A stretch of 31,745 nucleotides of DNA, from NCBI GenBank assembly GCA_035528375.1, contig DATKYS010000136.1, forward strand, positions 1 to 31,745, in the 5' to 3' direction. The translations under genes and the position numbers were made by a program. Source of the stretch: a bacterium. Lineage in GTDB: Bacteria; RBG-13-66-14. Under the pieces are notes generated by a model. That model saw only the letters and a program-made list of their open reading frames with translations. It did no database searches and was not told where the DNA came from. Positions 1 through 10,268 of the stretch are shown here, piece after piece; position 1 is the stretch's first letter, and each line of letters starts with the position of its first letter.

Positions 1-274
1 CTCCTCTGGGGGGAGGCTCGCCTACGGGCTGGGGAGGGGGGCAAAAACGGCGGGGATTGGAATCCCCGCCCTACGTCTTCTCCCTCTCCCTTCCAGGGAG
101 AGGGCTGGGTGAGGGGCGAGGTAGGGAACGTGAAAGCGGCGGCCCGCAGAGGGGCCGCCTTACATCATCGCAACCCAGGATGGGGTCGGGGCGTGGAAGC
201 GGCGGGGACTAAAGTCCCCGCCCTACATTTAAGCGCAAAGCGTACGCTATTTAGATCTCAAACGGCCCAACCGC
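1..274. repeat. Intergenic palindromic repeat cluster downstream of the lipoprotein operon
   Basis: No credible gene is seen here. The stretch holds several G/C-rich inverted repeats. Positions 49-70 form a 10-bp stem with a 2-nt loop (arms ggcggggatt / aatccccgcc). Positions 138-159 form an 8-bp stem (ggcggccc / gggccgcc). Positions 201-222 form a 10-bp stem (ggcggggact / agtccccgcc). Around 84-102 lies a ctctccc / gggagag pair, and 239-248 is a perfect 10-bp palindrome. Most hairpins are followed by ccctac or a close variant. The spacer gtagggaacgtgaaagcggc (121-140) recurs in the cluster at 12854-13197. The hairpin at 201-222 lies about 50 nt past the last lipoprotein stop codon and could stop or protect that transcript, but it has no U-run. 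Confidence 0.75.
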
Positions 275-664
275 CTAGCCGAAGGAGCCGGGCGGCGGCT
301 TGACTTCCTCGGGGGCTTCCTCGTCGCGGATGCTCTGGTTGCGCTCCTGGAGCTCCAGGGCGATGTCGTTGAGCACCCGGGAGTACCGCTCCTCGTTCTC
401 GTGCAGCTTCAATGAATAGGCGATGTACCCCTGTTCGGTGATGCCGTAGGAGTCCAGGAGTTTTTGTACCTGCCCCTCACGCCACTGCGCCCGGAGGGCC
501 GGGTCGGAGGGGATGGAACCACCCGGGCCCTGGCGCGTGCCCAGGAGGGTCAGGTCCACGGTGAGCTTGACGTAGTCGCCGTCGTCGAACCCCCCGTCGG
601 CGCAGCCCAGGGGGACGAGTGCCGCGGCGAGAAGGATCGCGAGGGCGACGGCTCTATTTCTCAT
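275..664 (-). CDS. Family-A small lipoprotein A1 (last of six)
   Basis: Predicted 129-residue lipoprotein of unknown function. The ATG at 664 is chosen because it gives a normal signal peptide (MRNR followed by a hydrophobic stretch) ending in PLGC with Cys21 as the lipid site. The Pro at -3 makes this lipobox atypical. The mature part opens with an acidic DDGDYV motif. After an insert of about 20 residues it carries the family core: a G-I-T-x-x-x-Y turn and a helix ending in a V-x-x-x-I pattern. It ends in an acidic, proline-rich tail. The start overlaps the stop of the upstream lipoprotein gene by 11 nt, so translation is probably coupled. It is the most diverged member of the array. Residue +2 is Ala, which by E. 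coli Lol rules would favour the outer membrane. Confidence 0.8.
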   Translation of the reverse strand: MRNRAVALAILLAAALVPLGCADGGFDDGDYVKLTVDLTLLGTRQGPGGSIPSDPALRAQWREGQVQKLLDSYGITEQGYIAYSLKLHENEERYSRVLNDIALELQERNQSIRDEEAPEEVKPPPGSFG

Positions 665-950
665 CGGCGGGCAAGGCCCCCTCACCGGGCGGGAGGAGCT
701 CCGGGTGGTCGCGGCGTAAATTTTCCAAAACCCTGGAGGCCAGGTCGGGGTCGGAGAAGACATCCAGCTCGAACCGCTCGTACTCCTCCTTCCCGACGCC
801 CGCGTCCCGCAGGACCGCGTCCGGGTTCTCGCCGCGGGAGGCGGCCTCCAGGCGGGCGGCGAGGAGGTCGGTGTAGGTCTGTGCGGTCAACTCCCCCTCG
901 CAGGAGACGAGGAGGAGAAGGAGAAGGAAGGGCAGGATTCTAGCGGTCAT
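654..950 (-). CDS. Family-A small lipoprotein A2
   Basis: Predicted 98-residue lipoprotein of unknown function. The ATG at 950 gives MTAR, a run of leucines and a good lipobox LVSC (Cys17). The mature domain follows the family pattern: T-x-Y-T near its start, G-V-x-K-E-E-Y-x-R-F in the middle, then S-D-P-D-L and V-L-E-N-L. It is predicted to be mostly helical. It is the shortest member, close to a bare copy of the domain. It overlaps the upstream gene by 11 nt (ATGACCGCTAG) and the downstream gene by 11 nt (ATGAGAAATAG). No clear Shine-Dalgarno sequence precedes it, so translation is probably coupled. Function is not known; a structural or scaffolding envelope role is only a guess. Confidence 0.8.
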   Translation of the reverse strand: MTARILPFLLLLLLVSCEGELTAQTYTDLLAARLEAASRGENPDAVLRDAGVGKEEYERFELDVFSDPDLASRVLENLRRDHPELLPPGEGALPADEK

Positions 951-1488
951 CGTCGGGGGCCAGCCCCTCGAGGCCGTGGCGCGCGGTGCCGGCGGCCCCG
1001 CTGCCCATGGCGTCCAGGGCGTCGGAGATGGCTTTCTCCACCCGTTCCTGCACATCGGCGTGCTCGGCCACGTAGGTGGCGAAGGCGTCCATGTCGTTCA
1101 TGGTGAAGCCCCGGGCGGCCACCTCCTCCTCGACCCGCTTTTGGATTTTATCCTCGGGCAGCCCCTCACCGGCTAGTTGGACGGTGAGGACCGAGATTTC
1201 GATGTAGGTCGCCTCGTCCATACGGGGGGCGGCGGAGTGGTCGGAGGCGTGGAGGCTGCCGGTGAGCTCGGCCAGCTCCTCGGGAGTCCGGGCGGCCTCG
1301 AAGTCGCGGACCTGCTCCGGGTCTATCCCGTGGCTCTCATACACCGGCTGGAGCGGCTCACCGTGAGCCTCGGCCAGGGCGATGTCCTTCATGAGCTCGA
1401 CGTACTGCTCCTCGGTTATCTCGCCTCCGCCGCAACCCGCGGTGAAGAGAAGGGCCAGCGCGGCGGTCAGGATACATGCGATTCTCAT
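940..1488 (-). CDS. Family-A lipoprotein A3 with two domain copies
   Basis: Predicted 182-residue lipoprotein. The start at ATG 1488 has a GAGGAG-type ribosome site just upstream and overlaps the previous stop by 4 nt. Signal peptide residues 1-18 end in TAGC (Cys19). Two copies of the family domain follow. The first (about 23-80) has E-E-Q-Y-V-E-L and a G-I-D-P-E-Q turn; the second (about 90-160) has D-E-A-T-Y-I-E-I and a G-F-T-M-N-D turn. A short linker without strong pattern joins them. This is the only member with an internal duplication. The first copy weakly recalls the Bacteroidetes DUF4296 lipoprotein pattern (Y-x-x-x-x-x-D-I-x-L-A-E-A), but this is from memory and unproven. The C-terminal tail is rich in Gly, Ala and Asp. 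Confidence 0.82.
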   Translation of the reverse strand: MRIACILTAALALLFTAGCGGGEITEEQYVELMKDIALAEAHGEPLQPVYESHGIDPEQVRDFEAARTPEELAELTGSLHASDHSAAPRMDEATYIEISVLTVQLAGEGLPEDKIQKRVEEEVAARGFTMNDMDAFATYVAEHADVQERVEKAISDALDAMGSGAAGTARHGLEGLAPDDDR

Positions 1489-1862
1489 GGGGTCTCCTCG
1501 GACGGGGTCGGTTCCACGGGCGGTGTCGGCTCCATCGGGGGCAAGGTCTCGGGCAGCGCCTGGGAATAAAGCTCGGCGAACTTCTCCCGCAGCTCCCCGC
1601 TCCGGTTCATGATCATCTCGACGACGGCCGCCAGACGCTCGGGGTCGTTGGCCAGGGTGTCCTCGAACTGGTATACGTCGTCCGGGGTGACGCCGTTATC
1701 GGCCGCCGCCTTCGCCAGCGCCTCGTCCACCGGCAGCTCGTCCTCGAGCATGTAGGTGGTCTTGGCCAGGATGACGGCGACATAGGTCTCGTCGTCCATG
1801 TCGGAACCACAACCGGCGAGGAGCAGCAGGAGAAGCGGCAGGAGGACAAAGGGCGTGCGCAT
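1485..1862 (-). CDS. Family-A small lipoprotein A4
   Basis: Predicted 125-residue lipoprotein. The ATG at 1862 follows a GGGAG ribosome site. The signal peptide ends in LAGC (Cys18), a textbook lipobox. The mature protein starts with D-D-E-T-Y-V. It then shows E-D-E-L-P-V-D-E-A-L-A-K-A-A-A-D-N-G-V-T, and ends the domain with N-D-P-E-R-L. It is closest to A5 and A6, sharing the L-P/T-x-x-E-A-L-x-x-A-A segment that A1-A3 lack. The C-terminal 20 residues are a P-T/E-rich tail of the kind that often spans periplasm or peptidoglycan. It sits 37 nt after the previous stop, the widest gap in the array. No enzymatic motif is visible. Confidence 0.82.
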   Translation of the reverse strand: MRTPFVLLPLLLLLLAGCGSDMDDETYVAVILAKTTYMLEDELPVDEALAKAAADNGVTPDDVYQFEDTLANDPERLAAVVEMIMNRSGELREKFAELYSQALPETLPPMEPTPPVEPTPSEETP

Positions 1863-1899
1863 CTTGAGTCTCCCGTGGGCGTTCGACCGGCCCGGCCGG

Positions 1900-2199
1900 T
1901 CAATCCAGAAGTGACGGGGTGAAGAGCTCCTCGGTCTCCCGGTTTATCCGGTCCTGCACGGCGCGGAGGTGGTCGGGGTCCCCTTCGAGCTCGGCCTGGT
2001 AAGCCTGGAAGTCTTCGATCGTGGTGTCGTTGTCGGCGGCGGCCCGCTCGAGGGCCTCCTCCGGGGTAAGCCCCTCGTCGAACATGATGCGGAGCTGGTC
2101 TATGGAGACCTCGACGAAGAGGTCGTCGTCCACGGCCTTGGCGCACCCGCCGAGGGCCAGAACGGCGAGGATCAGGGCGAGTAAGAGGCTACGGCTCAT
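1900..2199 (-). CDS. Family-A small lipoprotein A5
   Basis: Predicted 99-residue lipoprotein. An in-frame upstream start (2256) exists, but the ATG at 2199 is preferred because it gives a proper signal peptide ending in LGGC (Cys19). It also recreates the 11-nt overlap (ATGAGCCGTAG) seen at two other junctions of this array. The mature domain has D-D-D-L-F-V-E-V, then E-G-L-T-P-E-E-A-L-E-R-A-A-A-D-N, then T-T-I-E-D-F and G-D-P-D-H-L. It strongly resembles A4 and A6 in the middle segment. Residue +2 after the Cys is Ala, so there is no E. coli-type inner-membrane retention signal. Function unknown. Confidence 0.82.
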   Translation of the reverse strand: MSRSLLLALILAVLALGGCAKAVDDDLFVEVSIDQLRIMFDEGLTPEEALERAAADNDTTIEDFQAYQAELEGDPDHLRAVQDRINRETEELFTPSLLD

Positions 2200-2542
2200 G
2201 GGGGTTCGGCAATCCTTCCCGTGGAACGTGCAGGTACGGTTGGGCCCGGCGGGCAATCTCGGCGGCCACTCCCACGTCGGTGTCCCGGTCGCGGAGGAGC
2301 CACCGCGAGTACTCGTACATTGATTGGGCGGTGGTGCCGTGGAGCCGGGCGGCCTCGGCCAGCGCCTCCCCCGGCGGCAGTCCCTCCTCGGCCTCCAGGC
2401 GCAGGCGCTCGACCATGACGGCGATGTACGCCTCGTCGTCCAGCTCGCCGCACCCGGTCAGGAAAAACCCAGCCGCGACTGCGAGGACGCCGAAGAGCCA
2501 CACCGCCCCGCCCCGGGTGTACGCGCGTCCCGATATTATCAT
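2189..2542 (-). CDS. Family-A small lipoprotein A6 (first after lnt)
   Basis: Predicted 117-residue lipoprotein starting at ATG 2542, only 16 nt after the lnt stop codon, so almost certainly on the lnt transcript. The N-terminus is longer than in the siblings. A basic segment precedes the hydrophobic core, and the lipobox is LTGC (Cys31). The mature domain has D-D-E-A-Y-I-A-V, then E-E-G-L-P-P-G-E-A-L-A-E-A-A-R-L-H-G-T-T, and a final segment with R-D-R-D-T-D-V in place of the usual D-P motif. The tail ends in Pro/His. Function unknown; it defines the family together with A4 and A5. Confidence 0.8.
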   Translation of the reverse strand: MIISGRAYTRGGAVWLFGVLAVAAGFFLTGCGELDDEAYIAVMVERLRLEAEEGLPPGEALAEAARLHGTTAQSMYEYSRWLLRDRDTDVGVAAEIARRAQPYLHVPREGLPNPHEP

Positions 2543-2558
2543 AAAGCCGCCGTGCCGT

Positions 2559-4307
2559 TCACGGGTGTCGCCCCCTCCCGCGCCGCCGGTAGCTCTCCAC
2601 GGCCGCGTACAGGGCGAGGAGGACGAAGGCGCCCAGCTCGGCCCACGGGAGGGCGTCCCCCCAGAACATGTAGGGGGTCGGCCCCTCGGCCCGGGGGATT
2701 TTCACCAGAACCACGTCCTCGGTGTCCAGGAGGGTTTCATCACTGGGACGCCCCCAGGGGTCTACCCACAGGCTCACCCCGGCGTTGGCCGACCGCAGTA
2801 CGGGGACCCGGCTCTCCACGGCTCGCAGGACGGATACCTCGGCGTGCTGGTACGGGGCGGCGCTCTGGCGGAACCAGGCGTCGTTGGTGATGACCACCAG
2901 GAAGTCGGCGCCCCGCCGGGTGTAGTCCAGGCCTATCCCGGGGTAGATGCTCTCGAAGCAGATGAGAAGGCCGAAACGGGCGAGGACGGGTCCCGAGGCC
3001 GGCGGCGGCACCGGCAGCAGCTCCGCGGTGAGCTCGGGGCGCTCGGCGAGCGAGAAGGTCGTCGGATCGTCGTCGGCTACTGGGGTATCCGGCATGGGGA
3101 GGGGCGTCGGTCCCCGCCCGGGCGTCACCTCGAACAGCGGCATCCGCCAGCCGAAGTTGAAGTTGCTCGCCCGCTCGAGGAGGCCCTTCAACAATTCAGA
3201 GTCCCGGCCGAACGGGATGGTCTCGGAGAAGGGGACGAGGTGGATTTTAAAGTAGCGCTCCAGGGCCTTGGGGTTTCCCGGCTCCAGGAGGACGGCGGCG
3301 TTGAAGTGGCGCCCGGCGCCGCCCTCGCCCTCGTAATCCAGCGCCTGCGTCCCCACCAGGTGCCGGCAGCCCGAGCGGTTCACCATCCCCTGCACCCGGG
3401 TGTACCACATCGGCGTGCGTTCCAGGTAACAGTTGGCCGAAGACTCGGGCCAGATGATCAAGTCCAGGTAATCGGTGCCGGTCCGCTCGATAGCCCGCTC
3501 CACCTGGTGCTCGTAGATGCGGTAGGTCTCGCCCGAGGTGATGAAGTAGGGGGCCCACTTCAGGTCCTGGGGGATGCCGCCCTGGAGAATCGCCGCCCGC
3601 ACGGGCCGCTCGGGGTAGGTCGGCTCGCCGAGGGCCGCCAACCCGCCCAGGTGTACCACCGCCGCCAGCACCAGCGCCGCGGCGCCCCAGGGTAGAAGGG
3701 CCCTCCGCCAGCTCCGGCGACGCAGCCACTCCACCGCCTCGGCCACCAGGGCGTTGAACGCTATGACCACGGCCGAGACGCCGTACACCCCGAAGAGCGA
3801 CGCGGTCTGCACCGCCAAGAGATTCCGCGCCTGGGAATAGCCGAGGGCGAGCCAGGGGAAGGCGTAGAAGCCAAGGCACTTGACGTACTCCGTGGCGCCC
3901 CAGGCCAGCGCGGCCACGATCCAGTACGGCACGCGGGGGACGTTCCGCCGGACCAGGGCCAGGACCACGCCGCCCAGCCCCGAGTAGAGCGCCATCAACA
4001 GGGCGCTGATCACGAAGCCCGGCGCGGTGATGGGCGCCATCCAGTAGAAACCGAAGACGTTGACCAGGAAACTGAAGACGAACCAGTGGCGGAAGCCCTG
4101 CCCCGGCGTCAGGTCCCGGGAGGCGACGAAGAGGGGGACCAGGGCGAACCAGGCCAGGCCGTAAACCCCGGCCTTGGGGAAACTGAGGACGTAGAGCGCC
4201 ACCCCGAGCGCGACCAGGCCGATCCGGGGGTAGAGCCCCAGGGGTTTTTGCCCGACCCGGCCGTCGAGCCGGCTTCCGTCCAACGGTGGTAAAACGTCCT
4301 CTCTCAC
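2559..4307 (-). CDS. lnt: Apolipoprotein N-acyltransferase
   Basis: This inner-membrane enzyme transfers a fatty acyl chain from phospholipid to the amino group of the lipidated Cys of apolipoproteins, the last step of lipoprotein maturation before Lol sorting. At 582 residues it has about six N-terminal membrane segments (roughly 27-225) and then a periplasmic nitrilase-type domain. The Glu-Lys-Cys triad is visible: E288 in IIWPESS, K354 in YFKIHLVPFSE, C450 in LLICFES. The ITNDAWF motif (about 473-479) is also present. The K-to-C distance (96) exceeds that of E. coli Lnt (52) because of a Pro/Asp-rich insert at about 393-440. The GTG at 4307 gives an extra non-membrane leader of about 27 residues and no clear ribosome site, so the true start may be further in (for example a TTG at 4286). 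It heads the lipoprotein array. Confidence 0.95.
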   Translation of the reverse strand: MREDVLPPLDGSRLDGRVGQKPLGLYPRIGLVALGVALYVLSFPKAGVYGLAWFALVPLFVASRDLTPGQGFRHWFVFSFLVNVFGFYWMAPITAPGFVISALLMALYSGLGGVVLALVRRNVPRVPYWIVAALAWGATEYVKCLGFYAFPWLALGYSQARNLLAVQTASLFGVYGVSAVVIAFNALVAEAVEWLRRRSWRRALLPWGAAALVLAAVVHLGGLAALGEPTYPERPVRAAILQGGIPQDLKWAPYFITSGETYRIYEHQVERAIERTGTDYLDLIIWPESSANCYLERTPMWYTRVQGMVNRSGCRHLVGTQALDYEGEGGAGRHFNAAVLLEPGNPKALERYFKIHLVPFSETIPFGRDSELLKGLLERASNFNFGWRMPLFEVTPGRGPTPLPMPDTPVADDDPTTFSLAERPELTAELLPVPPPASGPVLARFGLLICFESIYPGIGLDYTRRGADFLVVITNDAWFRQSAAPYQHAEVSVLRAVESRVPVLRSANAGVSLWVDPWGRPSDETLLDTEDVVLVKIPRAEGPTPYMFWGDALPWAELGAFVLLALYAAVESYRRRGRGRHP

Positions 4308-4317
4308 GGGGTTGAAG

Positions 4318-4344
4318 TGTATAAAAGGACGACCGGCCGGTCAA
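4318..4344 (-). promoter_or_regulatory. Candidate promoter for lnt and the lipoprotein array
   Basis: On the minus strand, TTGACC (4344-4339) and TATACA (4323-4318) resemble -35 and -10 boxes, but the spacer is only 15 nt, shorter than ideal. Transcription would begin about 4 nt before the GTG at 4307. That implies either a nearly leaderless message or a start codon further inside the gene. The spacer contains the palindrome ggccggtc/gaccggcc. Support is the two hexamers only. Confidence 0.35.
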
Positions 4345-4410: not shown

Positions 4411-4470
4411 CCGGAGGTATAGCTCGCTTCGCTCGGTTTGCCGGGGGCATAGCTCGCTTCGCTCGGTTCA
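4411..4470. repeat. Two tandem 30-bp direct repeats upstream of the MBL hydrolase
   Basis: Two adjoining 30-nt units, 4411-4440 and 4441-4470, match at 26 of 30 positions and share the core atagctcgcttcgctcggtt. They lie between the divergent lnt and hydrolase genes. A shorter degenerate copy, with tttgccggggcat and cgcttcgct, is seen at about 5449-5485. Only two full units exist and there are no spacers, so this is not a CRISPR. It may be a small mobile repeat family or binding sites. Confidence 0.75.
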
Positions 4471-5448: not shown

Positions 5449-5485
5449 TTTGCCGGGGCATTACCCGCTTCGCTTCGTTTCGCTG
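5449..5485 (+). repeat. Degenerate copy of the 4411-4470 repeat
   Basis: The 91-nt gap between the hydrolase and the next gene holds tttgccggggcat followed by cgcttcgcttcgtttcgctgg. This resembles the second unit at 4441-4470 with its upstream tttg, but it is diverged. Nothing else is seen in the gap. Confidence 0.4.
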
Positions 5486-6007
5486 GTGAGCGTCCGGCGG
5501 TTGCTCTTCTGGCTGCTCATTTCAGCCGGCGCGGTCACCGCCGCGGTCGAGCTCCAAAACGGCGAGGCCTACGTCTGGCAGGGGCTGACGCTTTTCGCCC
5601 CCTCGGGCCGCTGGACGGTAAACGAGGGAGACGGCACGGTGGCGCTCTACCGTAGCTCGGACGCGGGCTACGTCGCCGGGAACCTCCTCCTCAGGGCGCC
5701 CGACGCGGGACTGACTGCGGCCGTCGCCGGGGGCGAGCGGGATAAAATCCAGGAGGAGCTGGTCCGCTTCCTGGCCGGGGAGTGCCGGGCGCGCTACGGT
5801 CAGGTTTTCGGGCTGGAGCGGCTCGACGCCGACGGGGTGGAGCCGGGCGCGGCCCTCTTCTTTTCGGACGGCGAGCGGCGGGTCCGCGCCTACGCTTTTT
5901 TGGCCCGCGACGGCGTGTATCTCCTCTACCTGGCCTGCGCCCCGGAGGTCGAGGAGTACATGGGGGCGGAGCTGGACCGCCTGGTCGGGGAATTGAGCTT
6001 CCGGTGA
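5486..6007 (+). CDS. Family-B secreted protein B1 (single domain)
   Basis: Predicted exported protein of 173 residues and unknown function. A GTG at 5486 gives a short basic start (VSVRR) and a hydrophobic signal segment ending near TAA; a TTG at 5450 is an alternative. There is no lipobox Cys, so it is probably a soluble periplasmic protein. The mature part begins L-T-L-F-A-P-S-G-R-W. It ends with V-Y-L-L-Y-L-A-C-A-P and a final helix G-A-E-L-D-R-L-V-G-E-L-S-F, the two signatures shared by the five genes after it. The order of strands and final helix recalls the PsbP/DcrB/Mog1-like fold; this is inference. It is the simplest member of the array. Confidence 0.75.
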   Translation: MSVRRLLFWLLISAGAVTAAVELQNGEAYVWQGLTLFAPSGRWTVNEGDGTVALYRSSDAGYVAGNLLLRAPDAGLTAAVAGGERDKIQEELVRFLAGECRARYGQVFGLERLDADGVEPGAALFFSDGERRVRAYAFLARDGVYLLYLACAPEVEEYMGAELDRLVGELSFR

Positions 6008-6014
6008 ATAAAAC

Positions 6015-7076
6015 ATGACGCAAAGAATATATATTTTTTCACTCCTGGCCCTGCTGATCGTCCTCGTTGTCGGATGCGGCGGGGAATCGGGCGAGGCTGA
6101 AAAACCCGCGGAGAAACCGGCCTCCGAAGAGGGGGCGGGTCCGCGGGTGGAATCCCAGGGGGCGCTGTCCCTGACGCCGCCCTCCAGGCTCTGGCACCTT
6201 GACGACGAGATCTCGAGCATGCTCACCCTCAAGCGGGGCGAGGCGGCGCCCGAGGCCGTGGCCCGCTTCTACTTCAACGGCCGGGACACCTACGACGAGG
6301 AGCGTCTCCGGAAAAAACCCGACGAGATGGAGTCGTTCCTGGAGGAGCTGGCGCGGGGCCTGCGGGACCAGATCGAGCTCACCGCCGGGTCCGACGTGGA
6401 GTTCATATCCGGCCCGGATTACCGCCGGGACCCGTACCTCGCCGCCAGCTACTCGTACCGCGCCGTGCTCGGGGCGGACAGCTACTACAACCTGGACACG
6501 GTCTTCTACGCGGGCGACCGCTACGCCTTTCTGGACCTCTCCTGCTACGCCGACCAGGAGGAGAAGCTGACCGGCGAGCTCGAGGCCCTGCTGGACTCGG
6601 CGCGCATCGAACTACAGAAGCCGCGGTCCTTGAAATTGAAACCGGGACAGGAGCTGGACTTCGGAAAAATCACCCTGACCGTTCCCGGCGAGGGGTGGAC
6701 CGCCGAGGAAACCTCCGAAGAGATGCTGCTCTCCCGGGACGAAGTGCCCCTGGTGGACCTCTACGTGCGTCGTCCCGCCTCCGGGGGCGCCGAGGGCTCC
6801 GACCTCTCCGAGGGGCTCAAGGGGGAGATCGAGGCCCTTTACGGTGAGGTAGAGTATTCAGGCCCGGTGGATATCCGCCGGACACCGGTCCCCTACGCCG
6901 CCGTGAGCTACCGTGGAGAAATATCGGGCCGGGCGGTGTGGCGCCGCGACGCCGCCGTGGCCGTGGGCGATGATTACTACTTCATTGACGCCGGTTGTCC
7001 CGCAGACTCGCCGGACTGGTTGATCGAAGAACTGACCGAACTCGTAAACTCGGTAGGACAAAGGGAGGAAGAATGA
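6015..7076 (+). CDS. Family-B lipoprotein B2 (two domains)
   Basis: Predicted 353-residue lipoprotein. The signal peptide ends in VVGC (Cys21). An acidic Glu/Ala/Pro linker (about 22-45) follows, which could hold the domains away from the membrane. Two copies of the family-B domain come next. The first (about 48-198) starts L-S-L-T-P-P-S-R-L-W and ends Y-A-F-L-D-L-S-C-Y-A-D plus a helix. The second (about 215-348) starts I-T-L-T-V-P-G-E-G-W and ends Y-Y-F-I-D-A-G-C-P-A-D plus a helix. The gene starts 7 nt after B1 and overlaps B3 by 4 nt. The conserved Cys near the end of each domain is notable. No catalytic motif is visible and the function is unknown. Confidence 0.85.
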   Translation: MTQRIYIFSLLALLIVLVVGCGGESGEAEKPAEKPASEEGAGPRVESQGALSLTPPSRLWHLDDEISSMLTLKRGEAAPEAVARFYFNGRDTYDEERLRKKPDEMESFLEELARGLRDQIELTAGSDVEFISGPDYRRDPYLAASYSYRAVLGADSYYNLDTVFYAGDRYAFLDLSCYADQEEKLTGELEALLDSARIELQKPRSLKLKPGQELDFGKITLTVPGEGWTAEETSEEMLLSRDEVPLVDLYVRRPASGGAEGSDLSEGLKGEIEALYGEVEYSGPVDIRRTPVPYAAVSYRGEISGRAVWRRDAAVAVGDDYYFIDAGCPADSPDWLIEELTELVNSVGQREEE

Positions 7077-8173
7077 CTCGAGTCGTAACGCTGTTGGCGC
7101 TCGTGCTGGCTACCATCACCCTCGCGCTGGGGGACCGGGTCGGGGAGGGCGAGGTCAAGGTGACCCTTCCCGGACCGGAGTGGCAGTACGAGGATTACGG
7201 GAGCGAGCTGTACGCCTGGTGGCCGAACCCCGACGATCCCGACTTCGACTTCGGCAGCCTCTCCGTCTACACCTTCCAGGTGTCGCCCATCTCCGAGGCT
7301 GAGAGCCGCGCCGACCTCGGAAAAACCCTGGACGTCCTGGCCGAGCTCCTCGACTCCAACATCCGGGACAACTACCAGGTCATCGAGATGGGCGACGCCA
7401 TCCGGGAAACCGAGCCCTATCTGATGGTCGGCCGGTACTACACCGACGAGGCCTTCGGCTGGGGGGACGAGGGTGAGGACGCGCAGCGATTCTACAACCT
7501 GGACGCGTTCTACCTGCAGGGGGACCACATCTTCGCCGCCAACTTCTACACCGTCCTGGAGAAGGCCGACGAGGTCAAGGGGATGATGCCGGAGATTCTC
7601 TCCGACGTGGAGCTGCCCGAGTGGGTGGCCGACCGGTACACCGACGGCGAGGTCGCGGACCTGGGCGGGTTCACCGTCACCATGGGCGACGGGCCCTGGA
7701 TCGCCGTGGAGGACTTCGGCGGCGCAAACCTGACCGCCTACGACGGCTTCGACCAGATGGCCACCCTGATGCTCTACTGGGTGGACGAGCCCGTCGAGGG
7801 TGAGAACGAGGGCGAAAAGACGGCCGCTCAGCTCAAGGACGAGCTCCGCGTGTTCCTGGATGAGTACTTCACCGGGTTCGAGGTGAACTACATCGGCGAC
7901 GGCTTCGCCCGGGAGGGTGAATCCCCCTACGCCGCCTGGGCCTACCACGTGGACACGGGCCTGGGCGATGAGTACCACTACGACGCCCAGCAGATAGTCG
8001 CGGGCCAGCCCTACTACATCGAGGCCGTGGTTCCGGCGGCCTATGAGGACCGGATGGCCCCCGTGGTGATGAAGATGGCGGAGGGGACCGTCATCGAGCC
8101 GGGAGCCGGCTCGTACGACTACTGGGATTACATAGACGAATCGGACGTGCCCCCCGACGAGGGCGGCGAGTAG
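7073..8173 (+). CDS. Family-B secreted protein B3 (two domains, acidic)
   Basis: Predicted exported protein of 366 residues. The ATG at 7073 overlaps the previous stop (ATGA) and is preceded by GGGAGG, which decides the start against longer in-frame options. The signal peptide (about 1-20) has no lipobox Cys, so this member is probably soluble in the periplasm or outside. Two related halves are seen: V-K-V-T-L-P-G-P-E-W (about 27-36) and F-T-V-T-M-G-D-G-P-W (about 200-210), each running to an aromatic strand and a closing helix. It is very acidic, rich in Asp, Glu and Tyr, and lacks the domain-end Cys of its siblings. Function unknown. Confidence 0.85.
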   Translation: MTRVVTLLALVLATITLALGDRVGEGEVKVTLPGPEWQYEDYGSELYAWWPNPDDPDFDFGSLSVYTFQVSPISEAESRADLGKTLDVLAELLDSNIRDNYQVIEMGDAIRETEPYLMVGRYYTDEAFGWGDEGEDAQRFYNLDAFYLQGDHIFAANFYTVLEKADEVKGMMPEILSDVELPEWVADRYTDGEVADLGGFTVTMGDGPWIAVEDFGGANLTAYDGFDQMATLMLYWVDEPVEGENEGEKTAAQLKDELRVFLDEYFTGFEVNYIGDGFAREGESPYAAWAYHVDTGLGDEYHYDAQQIVAGQPYYIEAVVPAAYEDRMAPVVMKMAEGTVIEPGAGSYDYWDYIDESDVPPDEGGE

Positions 8174-8179
8174 CGTGAG

Positions 8180-8833
8180 ATGACGAGGATCGCTGCGTTC
8201 CTGTTGGCAACCCTGGGGGCGCTGCTCCTGGGTTGCGTCGCCGAGCCGCTCCCCGGCGGCGAAACGGTGACCTGGGGCCTGGTTCAGACCACCGCCCCCA
8301 ACGCCGAGTGGGTCCGCGTCCCCGCCGAGGACGCCCTGTACCTGCGCCGTTACTACCGCTGCAGCCTGCTGGGCGAGTTCAAGCTCTACTACGCAGGCGA
8401 CGGCTTCGAGGACGAATACGTCATACGCTCCTCGGGCACCGAGGCCCGGTTCCTCGAGTCAACCGCCGATCTGTTGCGCGAGCAGATTGACCGCATCTCG
8501 CCCCGGGCCGCCCTGGATGACGGCCAGCCGACGCTGTGCTCCGAGCCCTACCTGGCCGTCCAGTACACCTACCACGACGAGACTGCGGGCGAGGCCCAGT
8601 TCCACTTGGATCGGCTGTACTTCGTGGAGAACCGCTACTGGTTCCTGGATACGGGTTGCCTGGCCGAGGAGGAGGAGCTAGTCCGTCCCGAGATCGAGGC
8701 CCTCGTGGCCAGCATCGTGTTCCCCCGCTTCTCCGAAGGCGACCGGGGCGGCTCCGCGGACGGCTCCACCGAGGAGATGAGCGAGGAGGAGATCGAGTCG
8801 CTGACCGAGATGCCCCAGGGCTGGAACCTCTGA
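8180..8833 (+). CDS. Family-B lipoprotein B4
   Basis: Predicted 217-residue lipoprotein with a good lipobox LLGC (Cys19). The single domain begins with T-T-A-P-N-A-E-W, the P-N-x-x-W motif shared with B5 and B6. It ends with Y-W-F-L-D-T-G-C-L-A-E and a closing helix (R-P-E-I-E-A-L-V-A-S-I-V-F). After the domain comes a Ser/Glu-rich acidic tail. A C-S-E-P-Y-L-A-V-Q-Y-T-Y segment in the middle parallels the P-Y-L-A-A-S-Y-S-Y of B2. The gene begins 6 nt after B3 ends, in one apparent operon. Function unknown. Confidence 0.83.
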   Translation: MTRIAAFLLATLGALLLGCVAEPLPGGETVTWGLVQTTAPNAEWVRVPAEDALYLRRYYRCSLLGEFKLYYAGDGFEDEYVIRSSGTEARFLESTADLLREQIDRISPRAALDDGQPTLCSEPYLAVQYTYHDETAGEAQFHLDRLYFVENRYWFLDTGCLAEEEELVRPEIEALVASIVFPRFSEGDRGGSADGSTEEMSEEEIESLTEMPQGWNL

Positions 8834-8844
8834 AGGTGAGCTCC

Positions 8845-9501
8845 ATGCTGAACACAAAGACAAGAGGCTTAAGCCCCTCGTCAGCCCCACTGCCCGTCGT
8901 AAAAGTCGGTCTGGCTGTTTTTCTGCCGATTCTGGCGATGCTCTGCGCCTGCACCCCGGAGCTCGGGCCGGGCGGACCGCTCGTCGCCGGGAGGTACGCC
9001 GCCCGTGCGCCCAACGACGCGTGGAGCGCGGGGGATTCGGGGGACGACGAAACGGCCCTCTTCGTCCGCCGCAATTCCGCCGAGGGCGAAGACGAACTGG
9101 CCTACCTGGAGTGCCTGTACTACGACCGCTACCTTGACTCCGAGGACTGGGTCCGCTCCGTCGGGGCCGAGGAGCGGGTGCTCGCCGATCTGTCCGACCT
9201 GCTCCGGCTGGAGCTGACCCGGCTCAGTCCGGAGCTGGAGTGGATCGGCACCCAACCGCTCACCGCGACCGACCCGGCGCTCTGTGTCTCCTGGCGCTTC
9301 CTCGACTTCAAGGAGCAGCTCCACGCCGATTCCCCGGCGAAAACGTACAACGAGGTCTCCCTGGTACTCACCGGCGACGAGGTGCACCTCGTGGCCTTCT
9401 ACTGCTACGAGGACAAAGCCGAGGAGCTGGTGCCCGAGTACGAGGAGCTGAAGGGAAGCCTTGCAGTGGACGGCCGCCGGGTCTTTTCCGGTGGATTGTA
9501 A
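8845..9501 (+). CDS. Family-B lipoprotein B5
   Basis: Predicted 218-residue lipoprotein. The ATG at 8845 follows an AGGTGAG ribosome site by a short spacer. The N-terminus is long (about 20 residues before the hydrophobic core) and the lipobox reads LCAC, with Cys36 the likely lipid site and Cys34 a second candidate. The domain starts A-R-A-P-N-D-A-W, has A-L-F-V-R-R and a Y-L-E-C-L-Y-Y-D strand, and ends H-L-V-A-F-Y-C-Y-E-D with a closing helix. It is most like B6. Its TAA stop shares an A with the ATG of B6 (TAATG), a common coupling arrangement. Confidence 0.82.
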   Translation: MLNTKTRGLSPSSAPLPVVKVGLAVFLPILAMLCACTPELGPGGPLVAGRYAARAPNDAWSAGDSGDDETALFVRRNSAEGEDELAYLECLYYDRYLDSEDWVRSVGAEERVLADLSDLLRLELTRLSPELEWIGTQPLTATDPALCVSWRFLDFKEQLHADSPAKTYNEVSLVLTGDEVHLVAFYCYEDKAEELVPEYEELKGSLAVDGRRVFSGGL

Positions 9502-10268
9502 TGAACCAAACCACAACCCCAACCTTCGACACCGCGATGAAAACGGACACACTTGGAAAACGACTGATACTGCCCCCCCTCGTGGTCCTTCTGCTGACCG
9601 CCGGTTGCGGCGACACGAAGAAGGAAGACCCGCTGGTCCGCCTGATCGAGGGCGACTACGCCGTCGGGAAACCCCCGGAAACGGAGGCGGTCACCGAGGG
9701 GACCGACTTCGCCGCGCTCTACGGGCCGGGAAGAATCGTCGAGGAGGACCCCTACTCGACGGTCACCCCCAACGGCGCCTGGCTGAACCGCTCCCTGGCC
9801 GGCAACCTCTTCCTGGTCCGCCTGGACGATCCCGCCCACGAATCCGAGCTCGGCTACGTGGAGGCGTACCGCCTGCCCGACCTCCCGGAGCGGACGGCGG
9901 CCGCCCTCGCCGCGGGCGAGAACCCGACCGGGGCTCTGGCCGAAGACCTGCGGGAGATCATCGAAAACCACGCCGTGAATCCGGTCTTCGTTGACCAGGA
10001 CCTGCCGAGTCTGAACGGCTACCCCTCGGCCACCCTCGTTTACCACGACCTCAAGCGAGATTCCGAAGGGGGCGAGGAGCCGGCCTACAACGAGGCCACC
10101 CTGCTCCTGGTCGGGGGCGAGGCCCACATCTTCACCGGCTACTGCTTCACCGACGCGAGGGAGCTCTTCGTCCCGGAGCTCCGACGCATCGGCGGGCATT
10201 TCTCCGTCAAGCCGCCCCCTCCCCCGCCGCCCAAACGGGAGACGGAATCCGCCGTGGCCGCGGAGTAG
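9501..10268 (+). CDS. Family-B lipoprotein B6
   Basis: Predicted 255-residue lipoprotein. The start may be the ATG at 9501, coupled to the B5 stop, or the ATG at 9537, which gives the neater signal peptide MKTDTLGKR. The lipobox is TAGC (Cys36 from the first start). The domain carries S-T-V-T-P-N-G-A-W, L-F-L-V-R-L-D-D, a Y-P-S-A-T-L-V-Y-H-D strand, H-I-F-T-G-Y-C-F-T-D and the closing helix E-L-F-V-P-E-L. It ends in a run of prolines followed by Lys/Arg/Glu, a possible spacer or wall-contact tail. It is the last array member, 3 nt before the phosphorylase gene. Function unknown. Confidence 0.82.
   Translation: MNQTTTPTFDTAMKTDTLGKRLILPPLVVLLLTAGCGDTKKEDPLVRLIEGDYAVGKPPETEAVTEGTDFAALYGPGRIVEEDPYSTVTPNGAWLNRSLAGNLFLVRLDDPAHESELGYVEAYRLPDLPERTAAALAAGENPTGALAEDLREIIENHAVNPVFVDQDLPSLNGYPSATLVYHDLKRDSEGGEEPAYNEATLLLVGGEAHIFTGYCFTDARELFVPELRRIGGHFSVKPPPPPPPKRETESAVAAE

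Follow-up and report, generated by a model that had tools for sequence, protein, structure and literature searches.

Sequence comparison identifies six small lipoprotein genes that follow lnt, here called s1 to s6, as an old expansion, specific to one lineage, of a lipoprotein domain that resembles DUF4296; this finding is new as far as checked. The genes lie on contig C136 of a draft genome (G000) of an uncultured member of Candidatus Coatesbacteria; this whole 31.7-kb contig is the window analyzed here.

Six lipoprotein genes are packed behind lnt

The array directly follows lnt on the minus strand (Table 1). A gap of 16 nt separates lnt from s1, and the distances between successive slots are −11, +37, −4, −11, and −11 nt. 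Among consensus matches, a promoter-like site was found only upstream of lnt and the next terminator-like site on the same strand lies beyond s6, so the arrangement is consistent with a single predicted transcription unit comprising lnt and s1 to s6. The lnt product scored 263.9 bits against TIGR00546, well above the equivalog cutoff of 132.9, and is therefore an ordinary Lnt. The initial annotation had described six packed minus-strand lipoprotein genes behind lnt, a description borne out by the reading frames, the gaps, and the lipoboxes, and its statement that no named system has such a layout also stands.

A short repeat around GAAGCGAGCTAT occurs twice between lnt and a metallo-hydrolase gene (cores at 4419 to 4430 and 4449 to 4460), and s6 is followed by GC-rich palindromes (GGCGGGGA..TCCCCGCC; window positions 40 to 220). 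Dispersed repeats of this kind near lnt and s6 may help rearrangement here.

Table 1. Features of the lnt-lipoprotein locus (window positions; g1 to g4 are genera)
Feature	Position	Strand	Length (codons; aa)	Description
Promoter-like site upstream of lnt	4316..4344	-		TTGACC-17-TACACT; consensus scan only
lnt	2559..4307	-	582	Apolipoprotein N-acyltransferase, GTG start; TIGR00546, Pfam LNT_N and CN_hydrolase
s1	2189..2542	-	117	Lipoprotein, one domain; genus g1 only
s2	1900..2199	-	99	Lipoprotein, ATG start, one domain; genera g1, g2, g4
s3	1485..1862	-	125	Lipoprotein, one domain and Pro/Glu-rich tail; genera g1 to g4; model pLDDT 91.9
s4	940..1488	-	182	Lipoprotein, two tandem domains; genera g1, g2, g4
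s5	654..950	-	98	Lipoprotein, ATG start at 950; the most divergent slot with a single domain
s6	275..664	-	129	Lipoprotein, ATG start at 664; one domain, long first loop
s6 C-terminal tail	275..316	-		APEEVKPPPGSFG-stop; invariant in 5 genomes of 3 genera (g1, g2, g4)
Terminator-like hairpin after s6	49..70	-		Consensus scan only; resembles dispersed palindromes nearby

The six proteins are paralogous

All six products start with a signal peptide, a hydrophobic N terminus ending in a lipobox-type cysteine that was read from the sequence and is kept in orthologues, and with 98 to 182 aa they are predicted small lipoproteins, in line with DUF4296, whose members are small secreted proteins or lipoproteins. 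Their mature parts are acidic (pI 4.0 to 4.7). The host genome encodes LolA and Omp85, a gene content that identifies the host as a diderm.

The mature parts share one helical domain of about 70 residues, present twice in s4. Leave-one-out profiles scored the mature parts of s1 to s6 at 46, 41, 55, 35, 15, and 20 bits, respectively (E values from 1.6e-6 to 8e-19), and in each case exceeded all 1,000 shuffles of the same sequence, the best of which reached 6 to 12 bits. Thus, the common pattern from which the initial annotation had concluded that the six proteins are related does reflect paralogy, and its count of seven domains was correct, since the fourth gene carries the domain twice. Searches of the six proteins against Pfam and NCBIfam gave no match above any cutoff. 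Weak matches to RsmI_C, DUF488, DUF4969, and other families were limited to single members and unrelated, and they were rejected; DUF4168, a look-alike, was absent among the families listed for the six.

The slots are old and differentiated

In a tree of 52 domains, s1, s2, s3, s4a, s4b, s5, and s6 each formed one clade across genera with 95 to 100% bootstrap support; the data are short (87 columns), and the branching order among the slots is not resolved. As each slot is a single clade, the tree dates the duplications and the s4 fusion to before the split of the genera that carry them. Within the genus, dN/dS of the slots ranged from 0.13 to 0.63 and that of lnt from 0.24 to 0.28, values that place the slots under purifying selection; comparisons between genera gave large dS and unreliable ratios. 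Together, the slot clades and purifying selection argue for an array of long standing whose slots are fixed and have differentiated. Fixation of the set is not strict, as g2 and g4 lack s1.

The C-terminal tail of s6 was unchanged in all five genomes in which this end is present, with the rest of s6 going down to ∼54% identity. A degenerate codon pattern for the s6 end matched once in each of these five genomes, with no further match among the 15 genomes searched.

The initial annotation had also considered a recombining family. Tandem paralogues would permit gene conversion, but the tree showed no sign of it among the slots, and both the separate, well-supported clade of every slot and the dN/dS ratios below 1, as sampled at the genus level, stand against this proposal. 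We therefore reject it and give next to no credence to a recombining or antigenically variable lipoprotein family. The stability of the slots bears as well on a second proposal, drawn by analogy from the layout of tandem paralogous lipoproteins in Staphylococcus aureus, where the DUF576/TilA proteins neutralize TslA (PMC10730906). Products of s1 to s6 could likewise be surface or periplasmic lipoproteins that neutralize secreted antibacterial toxins. We consider such an immunity-type role very unlikely, because both the copy number and the sequence of DUF576 arrays are highly variable whereas the slots studied here are stable across genera. In addition, none of the six proteins matched DUF576/Lpl in Pfam at E values up to 5, and no toxin-like gene was recognized beside the array within the window.

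The domain occurs in about 14 copies per genome

An iterated profile search recovered 82 domains in 68 reading frames from the seven Coatesbacteria genomes of the host's family, all of which carry the domain, at about 14 copies per well-assembled genome; it found none in seven other genomes of the phylum. Genomes G001 to G003 belong to the same genus as the host, and G006 belongs to genus g4. In the host genome, profile A1 detected 12 places at E values of 0.01 or better and 15 at E values up to 10, and profile A3 detected 14. Beyond the array, these include a second cluster of three genes on contig C113, downstream of rpsA and near mraZ-rsmH-ftsI, with a matching arrangement in G006 (L089), as well as solitary copies on C31, after an AMP-binding ligase gene, and on C39, where the lipobox is lacking.

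Several related arrangements were observed. The position of the second cluster between rpsA and an acyl-CoA dehydrogenase gene is kept in several genera (L060, 5128-7127; L089, 3937-7080; L097; L099). Large lipoproteins contain up to four copies of the domain (L091, 3415-5298, 628 aa; L095, 3365-4972, 536 aa), and in other proteins, which lack a lipobox, the domain is preceded by an N-terminal zinc ribbon and a membrane helix (L089, 4557-5267; L092, 3992-4687). A tandem pair from another paralogous lipoprotein family lies directly behind a solitary family member (L061, 5615-6755).

The window itself holds a second tandem array on the plus strand (5450-10268), made of six paralogous exported proteins or lipoproteins of 185 to 366 aa that form an unrelated family. 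This array had no Pfam match, and its leave-one-out scores ranged from 9.5 to 91 bits, compared to 11 or less for shuffles. Tandem duplication of lipoprotein genes seems to be a habit of the host lineage, since the host genome also holds tandem lipoprotein arrays of other, unrelated families.

The link to lnt is limited to three genera

The order lnt-s1 to s6 was found in g1, lnt-s2 to s6 in g2 (L035), and lnt-s3 followed by the contig end in g3 (L036). In g4 (G006), lnt is located beside the same metallo-hydrolase and transporter genes as in its relatives, on a contig that reaches 119 nt past lnt, and the array is not joined to it; instead, s2 to s6 stand in order behind a gene for a MATE transporter, midway along a different contig. 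None of the 36 neighborhoods of relatives from other phyla contained an lnt-like gene. Furthermore, lnt exists as a single copy in a host genome that encodes LolA and Omp85, so Lnt must serve all other lipobox proteins too.

The initial annotation had proposed that enzyme and substrates are coexpressed. Coexpression is plausible in g1 to g3, where lnt does adjoin the family, but a functional pairing is not supported, given the other clients of the only Lnt, the copies of the domain elsewhere in the genome, the separate array of g4, and the absence of lnt from the outside neighborhoods. For the same reasons, we regard it as improbable that the six proteins are dedicated substrates or regulators of Lnt, a proposal for which the position of lnt directly upstream in three genera would speak. 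Proximity to lnt rather looks like a lineage-specific operon convenience in these genera, neither a rule nor a part of the mechanism. Our results have little consequence for Lnt itself, because the link is so confined.

The domain is distantly related to DUF4296

PF14129 did not match the six proteins at E values up to 5, short of the Pfam gathering cutoff of 27 bits, and did not match in genomes G000 to G004 and G006; among the families listed for A2 members, it was absent. In a search of 386 genomes, profile A3 detected eleven places outside Coatesbacteria (E values from 4e-8 to 2e-4), most of which fall in short reading frames with 85 to 163 codons. An independent search with PF14129 also picked up two of them, G016:C22 and G058:C9. 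Aligned with hhalign, A3 gave a probability of 95.7 against a mixed DUF4296 set (A4) and of 90.0 against 30 Bacteroidota sequences above the Pfam cutoff (67 columns; E of 1.7e-6, which like all hhalign E values here refers to a single pair and not to a database search), and the six slots alone gave 94.1 against DUF4296. The single genes from outside (A5) are intermediates that link A3 and DUF4296, with probabilities of 97.7 against A3 and 98.6 against A4, and DUF4296 was the only Pfam family matched repeatedly in A5, by 3 of its 7 members (best E value of 2e-4). As for controls, the comparison of A3 with the Bacteroidota sequences yielded at most 1.4 in 60 column shuffles and 0.2 when reversed, and all controls remained at or below 2.1.

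Homology to DUF4296 at the profile level thus extends over the whole domain. These profile-profile links with clean controls, together with the A5 intermediates, place the family as a distant branch of the DUF4296 superfamily, although it is not a member by Pfam's own criterion. This relation was overlooked in the initial annotation. Each of the 39 positive Bacteroidota genomes had one DUF4296 match, compared to 14 places in the host genome. The Bacteroidota genes lie near genes whose sequences suggest a polyprenol-phosphate-mannose-type glycosyltransferase, a dihydroorotase, and an epimerase. In three outside genomes (L166, L167, and L174), a DUF4296-like gene was observed within a few kilobases of a gene for a large exported peptidase/beta-propeller-like protein (QFGRNKIQYQNFDW..TEHFDVYYY family). 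The literature searched contained no paper mentioning DUF4296.

A helical domain with a predicted adaptor role

AlphaFold2 modeled the domain from the 41 sequences of A3 with a mean pLDDT of 91.9 and a pTM of 0.81, placing helices at residues 7-23, 28-38, 43-54, 57-70, and 72-85; the domain is thus confidently predicted to be a four- to five-helix bundle. The model of s4, built from six sequences only, contained two four-helix units, each confident, whose relative placement was uncertain (pTM of 0.48) and therefore lends no support to domain-domain packing. Foldseek and VIA-align searches of the PDB returned a best E value of 0.97 and a best Z score of 4.9, for TetR-type and designed helical proteins; we rejected these matches, as such values are not meaningful for a small bundle. 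A profile sequence search of the PDB gave only short partial matches (best E value of 0.02).

No catalytic motif was recognized in the domain, and it would for this reason most likely be a protein-binding adaptor or scaffold. On account of the small size, the fold, and the lack of catalytic motifs, we tentatively place first among the readings that s1 to s6 are coinherited, specialized envelope lipoproteins that act together as nonenzymatic adaptors or as a scaffold. We infer that the signal peptide would export each product, that its cysteine would be acylated, with Lnt performing the last step as it would for every lipoprotein of this diderm host, and that the product would be anchored to a membrane with its acidic four-helix domain facing the periplasm, where it would bind other proteins. 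The slots would be noninterchangeable subunits that act jointly and are coproduced from one operon, and s6 would probably dock a conserved partner via its invariant tail.

Second in our ranking, possible if somewhat doubtful, is that the six are functionally independent small envelope lipoproteins, neighbors only by tandem duplication, which form no complex and share at most a general task, such as periplasmic spacing or stress buffering. Such independence would fit the occurrence of the domain in solitary genes and in further clusters, the single-gene relatives with different neighbors in other phyla, and the unrelated tandem lipoprotein arrays of the same genome. What tells against it is that the order s2 to s6 is kept across genera even apart from lnt, that starts overlap, and that conservation is strong and slot specific, for example, in the s6 tail. 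The initial annotation had also raised the possibility of a multisubunit envelope coat; the shared gene order, the overlapping starts, and the slot-specific conservation would fit a complex but do not show one. In a more specific form, which we think rather unlikely, an ancient DUF4296-like adaptor would have expanded in one Coatesbacteria lineage into five to six fixed, specialized subunits that assemble with the partner of the s6 tail into an envelope structure without known counterpart.

Comparison with known systems

With this array, the uncharacterized DUF4296 gains a richly diversified branch that provides a deep set of paralogues and a confident fold model, and adds natural tandem-domain and zinc-ribbon/membrane fusions as well as an invariant tail peptide usable as bait. 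It thereby becomes easier to test what this widespread single-copy envelope protein does.

Elsewhere, lnt (TIGR00546) has no such array behind it, even in other families of the phylum. The best outside relatives of the slots are the DUF4296-like singles of other phyla (G022, G164, G016, G161, and G299, set A5). Unlike the slots, these are lone genes, some with a membrane anchor or a cleavable signal that replaces the lipobox, and several adjoin ispG or yraN. DUF4296 proteins resemble the slots in their length and usual lipoprotein signal, and share with them a hydrophobic first helix, a G-[IVT]-T-x-E/D turn, and a D-P-E-x...V/I end, in agreement with profile-profile probabilities of 90 to 95.7; they differ in being single copy in Bacteroidota genomes, compared to about 14 copies here, and in their gene neighbors. 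The DUF576/Lpl/TilA proteins of S. aureus likewise form a tandem array of paralogous lipoproteins (PMC4470592, PMC10730906). However, the Lpl arrays vary among strains and have no link to lnt, whereas the s1 to s6 slots, compared at the genus level, are stable.
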